Shown here: positions 16,222-23,844 of the stretch, piece after piece | How positions within the stretch are numbered: the stretch's first letter is position 1 | Layout: each line of letters opens with the position of its first letter | NCBI GenBank assembly: GCA_022822625.1 | Contig: JAJEAV010000050.1 | Span: 1 to 64,000 of the forward strand | DNA length: 64,000 bases | Origin: Gammaproteobacteria bacterium | GTDB taxonomy: Bacteria > Pseudomonadota > Gammaproteobacteria > Arenicellales > Poriferihabitantaceae | Direction: 5' to 3' | Program-made: the position numbers and the translations under genes | Notes under the pieces: generated by a model | The model's database searches: none | The model's input: only the letters and a program-made list of their open reading frames with translations | What the model was told of the DNA's origin: nothing

Positions 16222-17171
16222 GCGAACCGGGACAAAGAAGAAGCAACTTCACCAGCACTTCGTTTCTTGACATTATTGCCTGCGGGTTTGGTGCGATTGT
16301 GTTGCTGGTTCTGCTTGCCAAGGACAGTCCAGACCCTTTGGTGTATGACGCACAAGCAGCCGTTGCTCAGCTTGATGCACTGGCTACCGAGATGACCAGG
16401 CGTGATGAAGCCATGAGTCGAATTCGTGAAGTCCGGGAGCAGATTGCGAGGGAAAAAACAAGGATTGCATTGGGTACGGAGATGATTGATCTAACCGAGC
16501 AGAATCTTGGTGATATCGATCGCAAGATTGACGAGTATGAACAACGCGCTGTCGCCCTCAAAGAGAGCATCAAGCAAGTGAGCAGTGAGAAAAAGGCTCC
16601 CGCTCCGTCCCCAAGGATCGAAAATGTGGGGGGAATTCCGGTTGACCGAAAGTATATTGTTTTCGTGATTGATACTTCAGGCAGCATGCAGCAGATTTGG
16701 CCACGAGTCATGGCGCAGGTGAAAAGCCTTTTGGAAGCTCATCCGAAGGTGGAGGGTTTTCAGGTGATGAATGACACTGGAAGCCACCTGATATCAACGT
16801 ACGCTGGAAGGTGGATACCCGATTCACCGGCGAGACGAGCGTCGGTTTTACGAGCGATAAAAAACTGGGCAACAATGTCCTATAGCGATCCTGTGCCTGG
16901 CATCAAGGCTGCACTCGGCGTTTACTCGGCCTACCGGAAAGATCTTTCCATTTATGTGATGGGAGACGAGTATTCTGGGGGGTCTTACGATATCTCGCTG
17001 GAACAGATATCGAGACTCAATACAGATCCCACGACTCGGAAAAGTCAGGCACGAATTCATGGCATAGGATTTTTCAACCCGCTTACACCGATCACAAATC
17101 AACAGTATTCGACATTCATGCGGGAGGTTGCCCGCCAAAATGGAGGGGCTTTTGTAGCGATTGCCGGATAA
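16218..17171 (+). CDS. second vWA-domain protein with N-terminal ExbD/TolR-like TM segment
   Basis: ATGA overlap with upstream gene; MSEPGQRRSNFTSTSFLDIIACGFGAIVLLVLLAKDS; MIDAS YIVFVIDTSGSMQ; the track's start at 16005 lies inside the upstream gene. Confidence 0.8.
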   Translation: MSEPGQRRSNFTSTSFLDIIACGFGAIVLLVLLAKDSPDPLVYDAQAAVAQLDALATEMTRRDEAMSRIREVREQIAREKTRIALGTEMIDLTEQNLGDIDRKIDEYEQRAVALKESIKQVSSEKKAPAPSPRIENVGGIPVDRKYIVFVIDTSGSMQQIWPRVMAQVKSLLEAHPKVEGFQVMNDTGSHLISTYAGRWIPDSPARRASVLRAIKNWATMSYSDPVPGIKAALGVYSAYRKDLSIYVMGDEYSGGSYDISLEQISRLNTDPTTRKSQARIHGIGFFNPLTPITNQQYSTFMREVARQNGGAFVAIAG

Positions 17172-17592
17172 CTGACCGTTGACTCCGAGAGAAGCACAGG
17201 TTTCGTTCCGGCATCTCGGCTTCGTTGTTGAACTGGAACACGGTAACCAGGCGGATGTTGTTCACAATGATATGGTATCGTGAATTGTTTTTTCCTTACG
17301 TCACAGCAGGTCTGATCGAGGCTACTGATCTTGTGGGATATCTCAATCATTCTGTATAAGTTCGAGAATCACGGCATGTACCTACGCACAAGAAGGCATC
17401 GCGATGCATTCTGGCTTTTTACATGACAACTCTTGAGAAGGCCAGTATTGGTCAGGATATTCTCCCTTTTGTGCAATTTGTGGCGAAAAGACCGGACGGA
17501 GCAATTGCATTGACGGAATAATCCACGCCGCCACCGATCATGATCCGGAAAACTGGAATTTCATGAAGGTTGCAATGTGACCACCCTCAAAC

Positions 17593-17601
17593 TTATCCAC
17601 A
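17593..17601 (+). promoter_or_regulatory. DnaA box TTATCCACA
   Basis: perfect consensus 9-mer upstream of dnaA. Confidence 0.6.
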
Positions 17602-17963
17602 AAATCGGCAGACAAGACTGTGGATGAAACAAGCTGGAAACCCGACCTGCCTGTCCTTAAGGCATATCAAGGATGAGCTGGCTGAATTTGTAGCAGATTG
17701 CTCCTGTATATTGCTTCAATTGCCCCAAATGCCGAAACACTCCAATCCATCATTCCACCCTAACACAACCAAGAATATCCGGGTTCGTCAAATGCAGGGT
17801 AATGCACATGTCTAAGACCTCAACCCGACTCGAAACACCTTGCTACCCCTTGACTATTTCAAGACTCACGCCACCTGCCGGCTCCTTGATGTGTGGCACA
17901 CATAACAGCACCTCTCCCGGTTCCGGAAAACCCCTTAAAAACAGAAAAATTTTTCGCTTTTCC

Positions 17964-17972
17964 TGTGGATAA
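17964..17972 (-). promoter_or_regulatory. DnaA box TTATCCACA
   Basis: TGTGGATAA on + strand, upstream of dnaA. Confidence 0.65.
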
Positions 17973-18136
17973 CAATTTTTGTTTGGAATAGAATGACTGT
18001 ATATCGTTAGTGCCTTATCGCAAGTCTGGATGATAAATTAATAAAAATTCAATAAGTTATTTCATCCCTTTTCTGATATTTTGTTCTATAAGAATGTGAT
18101 TTCATTTTAATTTTTGGTTGTGGAGAATTTTTTACT

Positions 18137-19474
18137 ATGGATGAGTTTTGGGGAGAGTGCATAGAAAAACTAAGGGAAGTCATGACCGAAAAAGAAATTG
18201 ATTCATCGATTTCCGTTCTTCACTGCCATAGGAAAAACTCGGTGCTGAAACTGTTGGCACCGAACCAGTATGTCCTCGAACATATTCGCAGCAACCTTCT
18301 GGATGACATAAAGAGCTGTCTGATTTCTACTGATACCGGGCTAACGGACGTACGTTTGGATATCGGGAGTTATGAACTTGAAAAAAAATCGTTCAGGACA
18401 ACGGAATCATTCACAGGGGAAACCGCAGAAACGCCTCCTCTGGATATTTATGAGGAAATCAGCAGGCCAAATGAAATATTTACGTTTGATAACCATATTG
18501 AGGGAAAGTCCAACCAGATAGCCCGGGCAGCCGCCCTCAATGTAGGCAAAGAACCGGGGTCATTCAACCCCCTGTATATTTACGGGGGAGTAGGCCTTGG
18601 CAAAACCCATCTCATGCACGCTGCAGGCAATGAGATAATCAGGAACTTTCCCAACGCCAAGGTTTTCTACATCACATCGGAGCGTTTCGTGATAGACCTG
18701 ATCAAGGCCATCAAGGATAACCAGATTAACGAATTCAAGCAATTATATCGATCTGTCGATGCGCTGCTCATTGACGACATTCAGTTTCTGGCCAAAAAGC
18801 AGCAGTCCCAAGAAGAATTTTTCCACACGTACAACGAATTAATCGGGATTGGATGCCAGATCATAATTACCAGTGATCGAATCCCTGATGCGATGAACAA
18901 CATCGATGACAGACTGAAATCGAGATTCAAGGGCGGTCTGACAACCCTGATTGATGTTCCGGAACTCGAAACCCGGGTAGCAATACTTCTGAAAAAGGCT
19001 TCTCACATAGGTATTGATCTACCGGACAACGTAGCTTTTTTCATTGCCAACCTGGTGCGTTCCAATGTCCGTGACCTCGAAGGCGCACTACAACAGATTG
19101 CGGCAGCATCACGATTCACACAAAGTAAAATCGATCTTGTCCTTGCCCAGGAAACCTTCAGGGACCTGATGTCTCACCGGAAAAAACAGCTCACTGTTGA
19201 GAATATTCAGCAGGTGGTTGCCAAATACTTCAAAATCAGGGTTTCGGACCTGTTCTCGAAAAGCCGCTCACAGGATATCACGAGGCCCCGGCAATTTGCC
19301 ATGTACTTCTGTAAGGAATACACCGATACCAGTTACCCGAACATTGGTGATCAGTTTGGCGGTCGGGACCATTCGACCGTCATTCATGCCTGCAATAAAA
19401 TAAGGGAATTGATTGAATCCAACCTGAAGGCACGTGAAGATCACGACAACCTGAACAAAATATTTGGGGGTTAG
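18137..19474 (+). CDS. dnaA: chromosomal replication initiator protein DnaA
   Basis: NPLYIYGGVGLGKTHLMHAAGN, LLIDDIQFLAKKQQSQEEFFHTYN, C-terminal GGRDHSTVIHACNKI. Confidence 0.98.
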   Translation: MDEFWGECIEKLREVMTEKEIDSSISVLHCHRKNSVLKLLAPNQYVLEHIRSNLLDDIKSCLISTDTGLTDVRLDIGSYELEKKSFRTTESFTGETAETPPLDIYEEISRPNEIFTFDNHIEGKSNQIARAAALNVGKEPGSFNPLYIYGGVGLGKTHLMHAAGNEIIRNFPNAKVFYITSERFVIDLIKAIKDNQINEFKQLYRSVDALLIDDIQFLAKKQQSQEEFFHTYNELIGIGCQIIITSDRIPDAMNNIDDRLKSRFKGGLTTLIDVPELETRVAILLKKASHIGIDLPDNVAFFIANLVRSNVRDLEGALQQIAAASRFTQSKIDLVLAQETFRDLMSHRKKQLTVENIQQVVAKYFKIRVSDLFSKSRSQDITRPRQFAMYFCKEYTDTSYPNIGDQFGGRDHSTVIHACNKIRELIESNLKAREDHDNLNKIFGG

Positions 19475-19723
19475 GGCGATGATTCGATTCCAGAAAAACC
19501 GCGTAAAAGATAACCGTATAATGTGGGCAACCTGTTAACTGTTTGTGGATAAAATGGGGATAGTATTTAATAACTCTGCTGTTTATGACACTATCCACAA
19601 CAGAGGCTGGTTATCCACACGGAAATCAACAGTTTTATAAACAATGATTTTATTATAAGATATTGATATTTATATAAAATTATTTTTTTTCACAGTACCA
19701 ACAGGGCTTACTACTACAACAAA
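19475..19723. other. probable oriC (dnaA-dnaN intergenic region)
   Basis: DnaA boxes at 19544-19552 (-), 19611-19619 (+) and a one-mismatch box CTATCCACA at 19591-19599, followed by a strongly AT-rich stretch 19630-19690. Confidence 0.72.
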
Positions 19724-20887
19724 ATGAAATTTAATCTAAATAGAAATGTTTTAGTGTCTCCATTGACATTGTTGAATAGTGTCATCGAAAAGACACAAAC
19801 GTTACCCATACTGTCCAATGTTTATTTTAGTATTGAAGATGGTGTGCTTACCTTGATCGGCTCGGATCTTGAAGTTGAAATTACCCAGACTATTGAGAAC
19901 GTAAAAAGTGAGAATGGGTCATTTACCGTTTTGGGTAAAAAGATCATGGATATTATCAGAGCGCTTCCCGATAATGCTGAAATTTCGTTTGATCATAACC
20001 CCGGCAATCATGATCTTGTCGTAACTTCAGGAAAAAGCAGGTACAAGCTCAAGACATTGCCTGCAGACAACTATCCAAAACTAAAAACCGATGATTGGGA
20101 AGAACGATTCAGGATAAACTCGAAGGCTCTAAAGGAAACGATCGATAGAGTTTCATTTTCGATGGCCATGAGTGACCACCGTTTTTCCTTGAACGGAGTA
20201 TCGTTTTTTATAGAGAACAAGCAGTTGACTGCAACCGCGACTGACGGACATCGACTGGCCAGAACGAAAATTGACCTGGAAGTGGATACGGAAAACGAAA
20301 GACAGGTAACCATTCCCCGTAAGGCGGTATCTGAAATCAGCAGAATGATCGATATTGGCCTTGCTCGCTCGGACCAGCCAAAAGAAGACAGCCAGAAATT
20401 GGTTGATAAGTCGATGGTTACCTTCGAATACTCCCGAAATCATATTCGGTTTACGGCACCCGGAAGAATTCTCATCGCGAAACTGATAGATGGCAAATAT
20501 CCAAAATTCGATGACGTGATCGAAGCAGGCGAAGACAATATCGTACTCAGTCTTGATCGCCGAAAACTAACCGATATTCTCTCACGAGTTGCAGTTATTG
20601 GTGACGACAAGTACAGGGGTGTAGGCATTCGCCTGTCCTTGGCTGACAAAAAACTGAAAATCAGTGCCAATACAACCGAACAACAGCACGCTTATGATGA
20701 AATGCAGGTTGACTATGATGGCGAAGAAATACTGTTCGGATACAACGCCGCCTATTTGCTAGACATATGCAGGGTTATCCAGACGAACAAGGTTGACATA
20801 ACGCTCGACAACAAAAGCAATATCTGTTATTTCCACCAGCCCAGGGATGAACACTCGGTGTGGCTGGTCATGCCGATGAGGCTGTAA
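19724..20887 (+). CDS. dnaN: DNA polymerase III beta sliding clamp
   Basis: MKFNLNRNVLVSPLTLLNSVIEKTQTLPILSNV...C-terminal VWLVMPMRL. Confidence 0.98.
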   Translation: MKFNLNRNVLVSPLTLLNSVIEKTQTLPILSNVYFSIEDGVLTLIGSDLEVEITQTIENVKSENGSFTVLGKKIMDIIRALPDNAEISFDHNPGNHDLVVTSGKSRYKLKTLPADNYPKLKTDDWEERFRINSKALKETIDRVSFSMAMSDHRFSLNGVSFFIENKQLTATATDGHRLARTKIDLEVDTENERQVTIPRKAVSEISRMIDIGLARSDQPKEDSQKLVDKSMVTFEYSRNHIRFTAPGRILIAKLIDGKYPKFDDVIEAGEDNIVLSLDRRKLTDILSRVAVIGDDKYRGVGIRLSLADKKLKISANTTEQQHAYDEMQVDYDGEEILFGYNAAYLLDICRVIQTNKVDITLDNKSNICYFHQPRDEHSVWLVMPMRL

Positions 20888-21000
20888 GGCCTCGCGGATG
20901 TCAGCCTCAATATGCGCAACGTGTTTTTAGCGAAATCAGGCATTTCATCAGCCTAATTTTCGAATGCCGGTCGAGGCAGGGGGATCCAGTCCATGCTCCG

Positions 21001-21016
21001 TGTTTCACGTGAAACA
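21001..21016. promoter_or_regulatory. parS (ParB-binding) site 1
   Basis: perfect 16-bp palindrome TGTTTCACGTGAAACA. Confidence 0.9.
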
Positions 21017-21313
21017 TTCCGTGAGCAGGCATACAAGTCGGTCCTGATGTTTTTTCATGGTTTGCTCCCATGGGAGCGGAAAATCCATGTCTGGGTGTTC
21101 CCCGCCCGAGTTGACACGTTCTCGCCATGAGTGGCACGGCAAGGACCCCAGTGATGCGAAAGCAGCCAGACTGGCAGGACAGGCGGTCAGAATTGGCAGG
21201 GTTCGAATGCAACCATGCAACAAAATACAATGCGGATAGGGTATAATTCGAGACCATGATTTTCATGCAATCTGAGATTTAGGGGCGGTTGCCGCTTCGC
21301 ATTTTTTACCGGG

Positions 21314-21329
21314 TGTTTCACGTGAAACA
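21314..21329. promoter_or_regulatory. parS (ParB-binding) site 2
   Basis: perfect 16-bp palindrome TGTTTCACGTGAAACA, 313 bp from site 1. Confidence 0.9.
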
Positions 21330-21381
21330 TTGATCGATTGTTTTTCCCCACTTTTGTTTATTTCCACAAGTTTCAGGCTGA

Positions 21382-23844
<2,463 letters not shown>

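Follow-up and report, generated by a model that had tools for sequence, protein, structure and literature searches.

The chromosome of this gammaproteobacterium carries two perfect parS palindromes in the gap between dnaN and gyrB, the usual place of recF, a gene for which the genome gives no match above the cut-off. We regard it as roughly an even call that the centromere has here outlived its host gene: one parS would have been built into recF codons (spelling FHVE) in a gammaproteobacterial ancestor, and recF would then have been lost, while selection kept two parS between dnaN and gyrB in most of a recF-less order. The parS sites and the ParABS system itself are ordinary and of a known kind; what is added here is their relation to recF. 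Both this relation and the absence of recF go beyond an earlier note on this DNA, made from its letters alone, that had recognized the pair as chromosomal parS.

The stretch of DNA analysed (64,000 nucleotides, hereafter the window) encodes DnaA (18137-19474), DnaN (19724-20887) and GyrB (21430-23844), all on the plus strand and all assigned through Pfam, which places the sites between dnaN and gyrB as the earlier note had it. The two 16-mers are exact at the coordinates it gave: an exact-match search finds the palindrome TGTTTCACGTGAAACA, which reads the same on either strand, at 21001-21016 (site 1) and an identical one at 21314-21329 (site 2), 313 bp further on from start to start and 100 bp before gyrB. 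A 19-mer, GTGTTTCACGTGAAACATT, is repeated exactly and encloses both. At up to three mismatches the window holds two matches to the 16-mer against 0.32 expected from shuffles, an expectation that counts sites with up to three mismatches, when both observed parS have none. The genome-wide count, which the note had proposed as a check, came to two: at up to two mismatches, the 2.56 Mb searched (a draft in 92 contigs, 94% complete) contain both dnaN-gyrB sites and no further match, and the reversed pattern, used as a control, has none genome-wide. A draft in so many contigs might be thought to invite an artefact of assembly, yet the same pair occupies the same place in congeners and in independently assembled relatives; as for chance, there is no further near match in the genome, and shuffled gaps yield none. 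We therefore give chance or artefact a practically negligible probability.

As is typical of chromosomal parS, the sites cluster near the replication origin, with dnaA and dnaN adjoining. The gap between these two genes (19475-19723) is an oriC candidate with exact DnaA boxes at 19544 (minus strand) and 19611 (plus strand) and a one-mismatch box at 19591; these boxes stand 1.4-1.8 kb from the sites, in keeping with the distance of about 1.3-1.8 kb from the putative oriC that had been claimed. Because exact boxes also occur upstream of dnaA (17593 and 17964), in a 965-bp stretch (17172-18136) whose ORFs are all shorter than 120 aa, there are two oriC candidate gaps. The GyrB of the window has at most about 62% identity to its matches in named genomes, and a megablast-type comparison with plasmid records matched distant dnaA-dnaN-gyrB only.

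The proteins expected of such a system are encoded as well. The earlier note had named a genome lacking ParB as the case against its reading and had left parAB to be located; a full ParB follows directly after a chromosomal-type ParA and RsmG, in the order rsmG-parA-parB, on contig C20 and not on the contig of the window. It is the single chromosomal-type ParB of the genome, with ParB_N, HTH_ParB and ParB_C domains (TIGR00180, 188 bits) and with GERRWRG and ENIQR as CTP-binding motifs. Its closest solved structure is 6t1f (E 6.5e-52), which we take to be the ParB of Caulobacter. Residues were read by motif alignment, with the numbering of PMC7383237. The protein keeps R173 and G201, reported as absolutely conserved in ParB (PMC7383237), together with S172, N178, G170 and R204, and has H at 162 and C at 171, where Caulobacter ParB has Q and K. 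At 179 and 184, positions that vary among ParBs, it has L and N, so that the set R173, L179, N184 and G201 is of the ParB type as against the Q173, K179, K184 and R201 of Noc. A Noc binding site was considered and rejected: it needs a CCCGGG centre, positions 1 and 6 being A and C, as well as a Noc with Q173 and R201, whereas the sites are CACGTG-centred and the sole ParB-family match in the genome, carrying R173 and G201, falls below the Noc cut-off.

The 16-mer class, the ParB family and R173/G201 are shared with the ParB/Spo0J-parS systems of Caulobacter and Bacillus (ParB 6t1f; Spo0J 1vz0 and 6sdk). Unlike in those systems, and provided that the draft contigs are correct, the distance between parAB and parS would be about 41 kb or more, since parB is on another contig; a search of 20 kb around parAB found no parS there, and for several further members of the order the coordinates put parB 10-20 kb from parS. 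An SMC (1018 bits) is encoded on the ParB contig. The identity claimed for the sites is well supported by this single chromosomal-type ParB with its parS-reading residues, and we hold it highly probable that both 16-mers are ordinary chromosomal parS of a standard ParABS, with predicted ParB binding. As searched in the draft, they are predicted to be the sole chromosomal centromere sites of the bacterium, and the pair probably marks the segregation centre in this lineage, which is represented here by a draft genome.

In ParABS systems ParB loads at parS and spreads in a CTP-gated manner, ParA drives the movement of the origin region, and SMC is loaded. Here, ParB dimers would recognise each palindrome through the HTH domain and, loaded as clamps that depend on CTP, would spread across dnaA-gyrB; ParA-ATP would move the origin region once it has been copied, and SMC would probably be loaded by ParB. 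A further effect is conceivable at gyrB. A TATAAT at 21242-21247 (plus strand), between both parS, is a candidate -10 element, and four of four congeners have it 71-74 bp ahead of parS 2. Alignment of these four is weak outside both parS, the TATAAT and the start of gyrB; a consensus promoter scan of the region returned no full sigma-70 match. Taken by itself, this TATAAT suggests that the gyrB promoter lies between the sites and parS 2 in the gyrB leader, and because of that probable position ParB at site 2 may also damp gyrB transcription. Could the 16-mers then be mainly operators, through which ParB or another regulator controls gyrB or dnaN, and not a centromere? The conserved TATAAT would fit, as would the report that excess ParB lowers gyrB in Pseudomonas aeruginosa (PMC5521831), but no other parS was found in this genome, which has ParA, ParB and SMC, so that the centromere role has no other candidate, and we consider a mainly regulatory role very unlikely. 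Between the TATAAT and parS 2 there is also a terminator-like hairpin with a T-run (21282-21298), a possible terminator of dnaN transcripts or attenuator of gyrB; such hits number two in the scanned region versus 0.8 expected. In one congener, more than 1 kb of additional DNA separates both parS (L065:6640-8170, genome G005), and its ORFs match no Pfam or NCBIfam family.

What distinguishes the locus is the missing gene. The gene recF is often found between dnaN and gyrB (PMC1193525). The dnaN-gyrB gap of the window (20888-21429, plus strand, 542 bp) holds neither recF nor a remnant of it and has no family match; its longest ORF (20907-21266, minus strand) matches nothing in Pfam, and RNA families sought in 17100-21600 gave no hit. 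RecR is present in the genome. Of 60 genomes of the order that were searched, counting that of the window, 58 lack recF, and the RecF matches in the other two are probable contaminants, on small contigs (G015:C272 and G037:C361) within public genome bins of a recF-less order: both genomes also hold a recF-less dnaN-gyrB locus, and the former contig carries a second, more distant dnaA-dnaN-gyrB set. A small parS-bearing contig of another genome (G018:C848) is probably contamination too, and was treated as such because it also carries a Caulobacter-like ParB. RecF is the least frequent member of RecFOR (PMC1193525), and since it was found in 150 of 184 genomes of a class-wide sample, its loss is not unique to this order.

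Where recF has been kept, parS is often part of it. The comparison loci were those encoding a GyrB relative, fetched irrespective of parS, and sites with up to two mismatches to TGTTYCACGTGRAACA were counted as parS-like. In 72 gammaproteobacterial loci recF adjoins gyrB. A site of this kind falls within recF in 46 of them, and in 45 of these it lies at nt 403-430 in a shared reading frame, where it encodes FHVE or FHVK; the intergene between recF and gyrB has one in 62. Of 38 recF-less loci (the window among them), 37 have two such sites, no more and no fewer, between dnaN and gyrB, at start-to-start distances of 23 to 1568 bp, and the remaining locus has a single one; here presence is biased, because most were fetched via parS hits, and location and number are unbiased. 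Shuffled versions of these gaps contain no sites. Three loci found through GyrB and not through parS (L113-L115) likewise have two sites in this gap, and in a genome picked only for lacking RecF (G130) the dnaN-gyrB gap, about 115 bp long, contains two sites with one mismatch each. In a tree of GyrB and DnaN, for which loci were sampled with no aim of covering further lineages that lack recF, one split with a support of 0.98 parts recF-less from recF-bearing loci; L124, a locus that gave no recF, is counted among the latter.

A close known parallel is that of P. aeruginosa, in which two high-affinity parS with the same palindrome core sit at the dnaA-dnaN-recF-gyrB operon (PMC4368675, PMC5521831). 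There, parS1 and parS2 were published as within recF (PMC5521831), whereas here recF is gone and the sites are intergenic; its sequence, TGTTCCACGTGGAACA or the form ending in ACC, differs from TGTTTCACGTGAAACA, and it has ten parS in all against two here. The number of two sites, the recF-internal and intergene sites of relatives, and the fit of the P. aeruginosa recF parS lead us to think it somewhat better than an even chance that the pair descends from a recF-internal and a recF-gyrB site, kept in what is now non-coding DNA after the loss of recF. This is said of the pair, as 16-bp palindromes with barely alignable flanks cannot prove the ancestry of single sites.

The main rival is that the pair is functional and yet not of recF age, its sites having been re-formed or duplicated locally after the loss, one copied to give the second. 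It owes this standing to two observations: both sites are identical in 19 of the 37 gaps, and in Methylococcales (such as L120, L128, L144 and L184) both lie in the recF-gyrB intergene alone with recF intact, so that neither the appearance nor the movement of sites need depend on recF. Members of genus g3, in the same family, also have the same unusual variant twice, as copying or conversion would produce. However, the other 18 pairs are non-identical, and exactly two sites recur over most of the order and beyond, two being the common number in recF-bearing loci. We take local re-formation to be possible, on balance not probable. The drifted pairs of g3 (L226, L076 and L073, from genomes G014, G020 and G017) are TGTTTCATATGAAACA twice, TGTTTCATGTGAAACA twice, and TGTTTCACGGGAAACA with its reverse complement, the last being half parS and half Noc-site centre; a switch of ParB specificity behind these variants is unsupported, R173 and G201 being unchanged. 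The genomes of family f11 (L233-L235) have one TGTTCCACGTGGAACG site as their best, at a distance of 2-3 kb from parAB; the pair arrangement was not seen in them, and the 20 kb fetched encode no DnaN or GyrB.

Descent from the recF-era sites, if true, would make this order a natural experiment on centromere placement, in which the host gene is gone and the two sites stayed. Two parS kept as the rest of recF vanished would mean that a pair at the dnaN-gyrB position is itself under constraint. Our comparison further suggests that part of the recF coding sequence also serves as a centromere in many gammaproteobacteria, and that the conservation of recF in that part may therefore act partly at the level of DNA.
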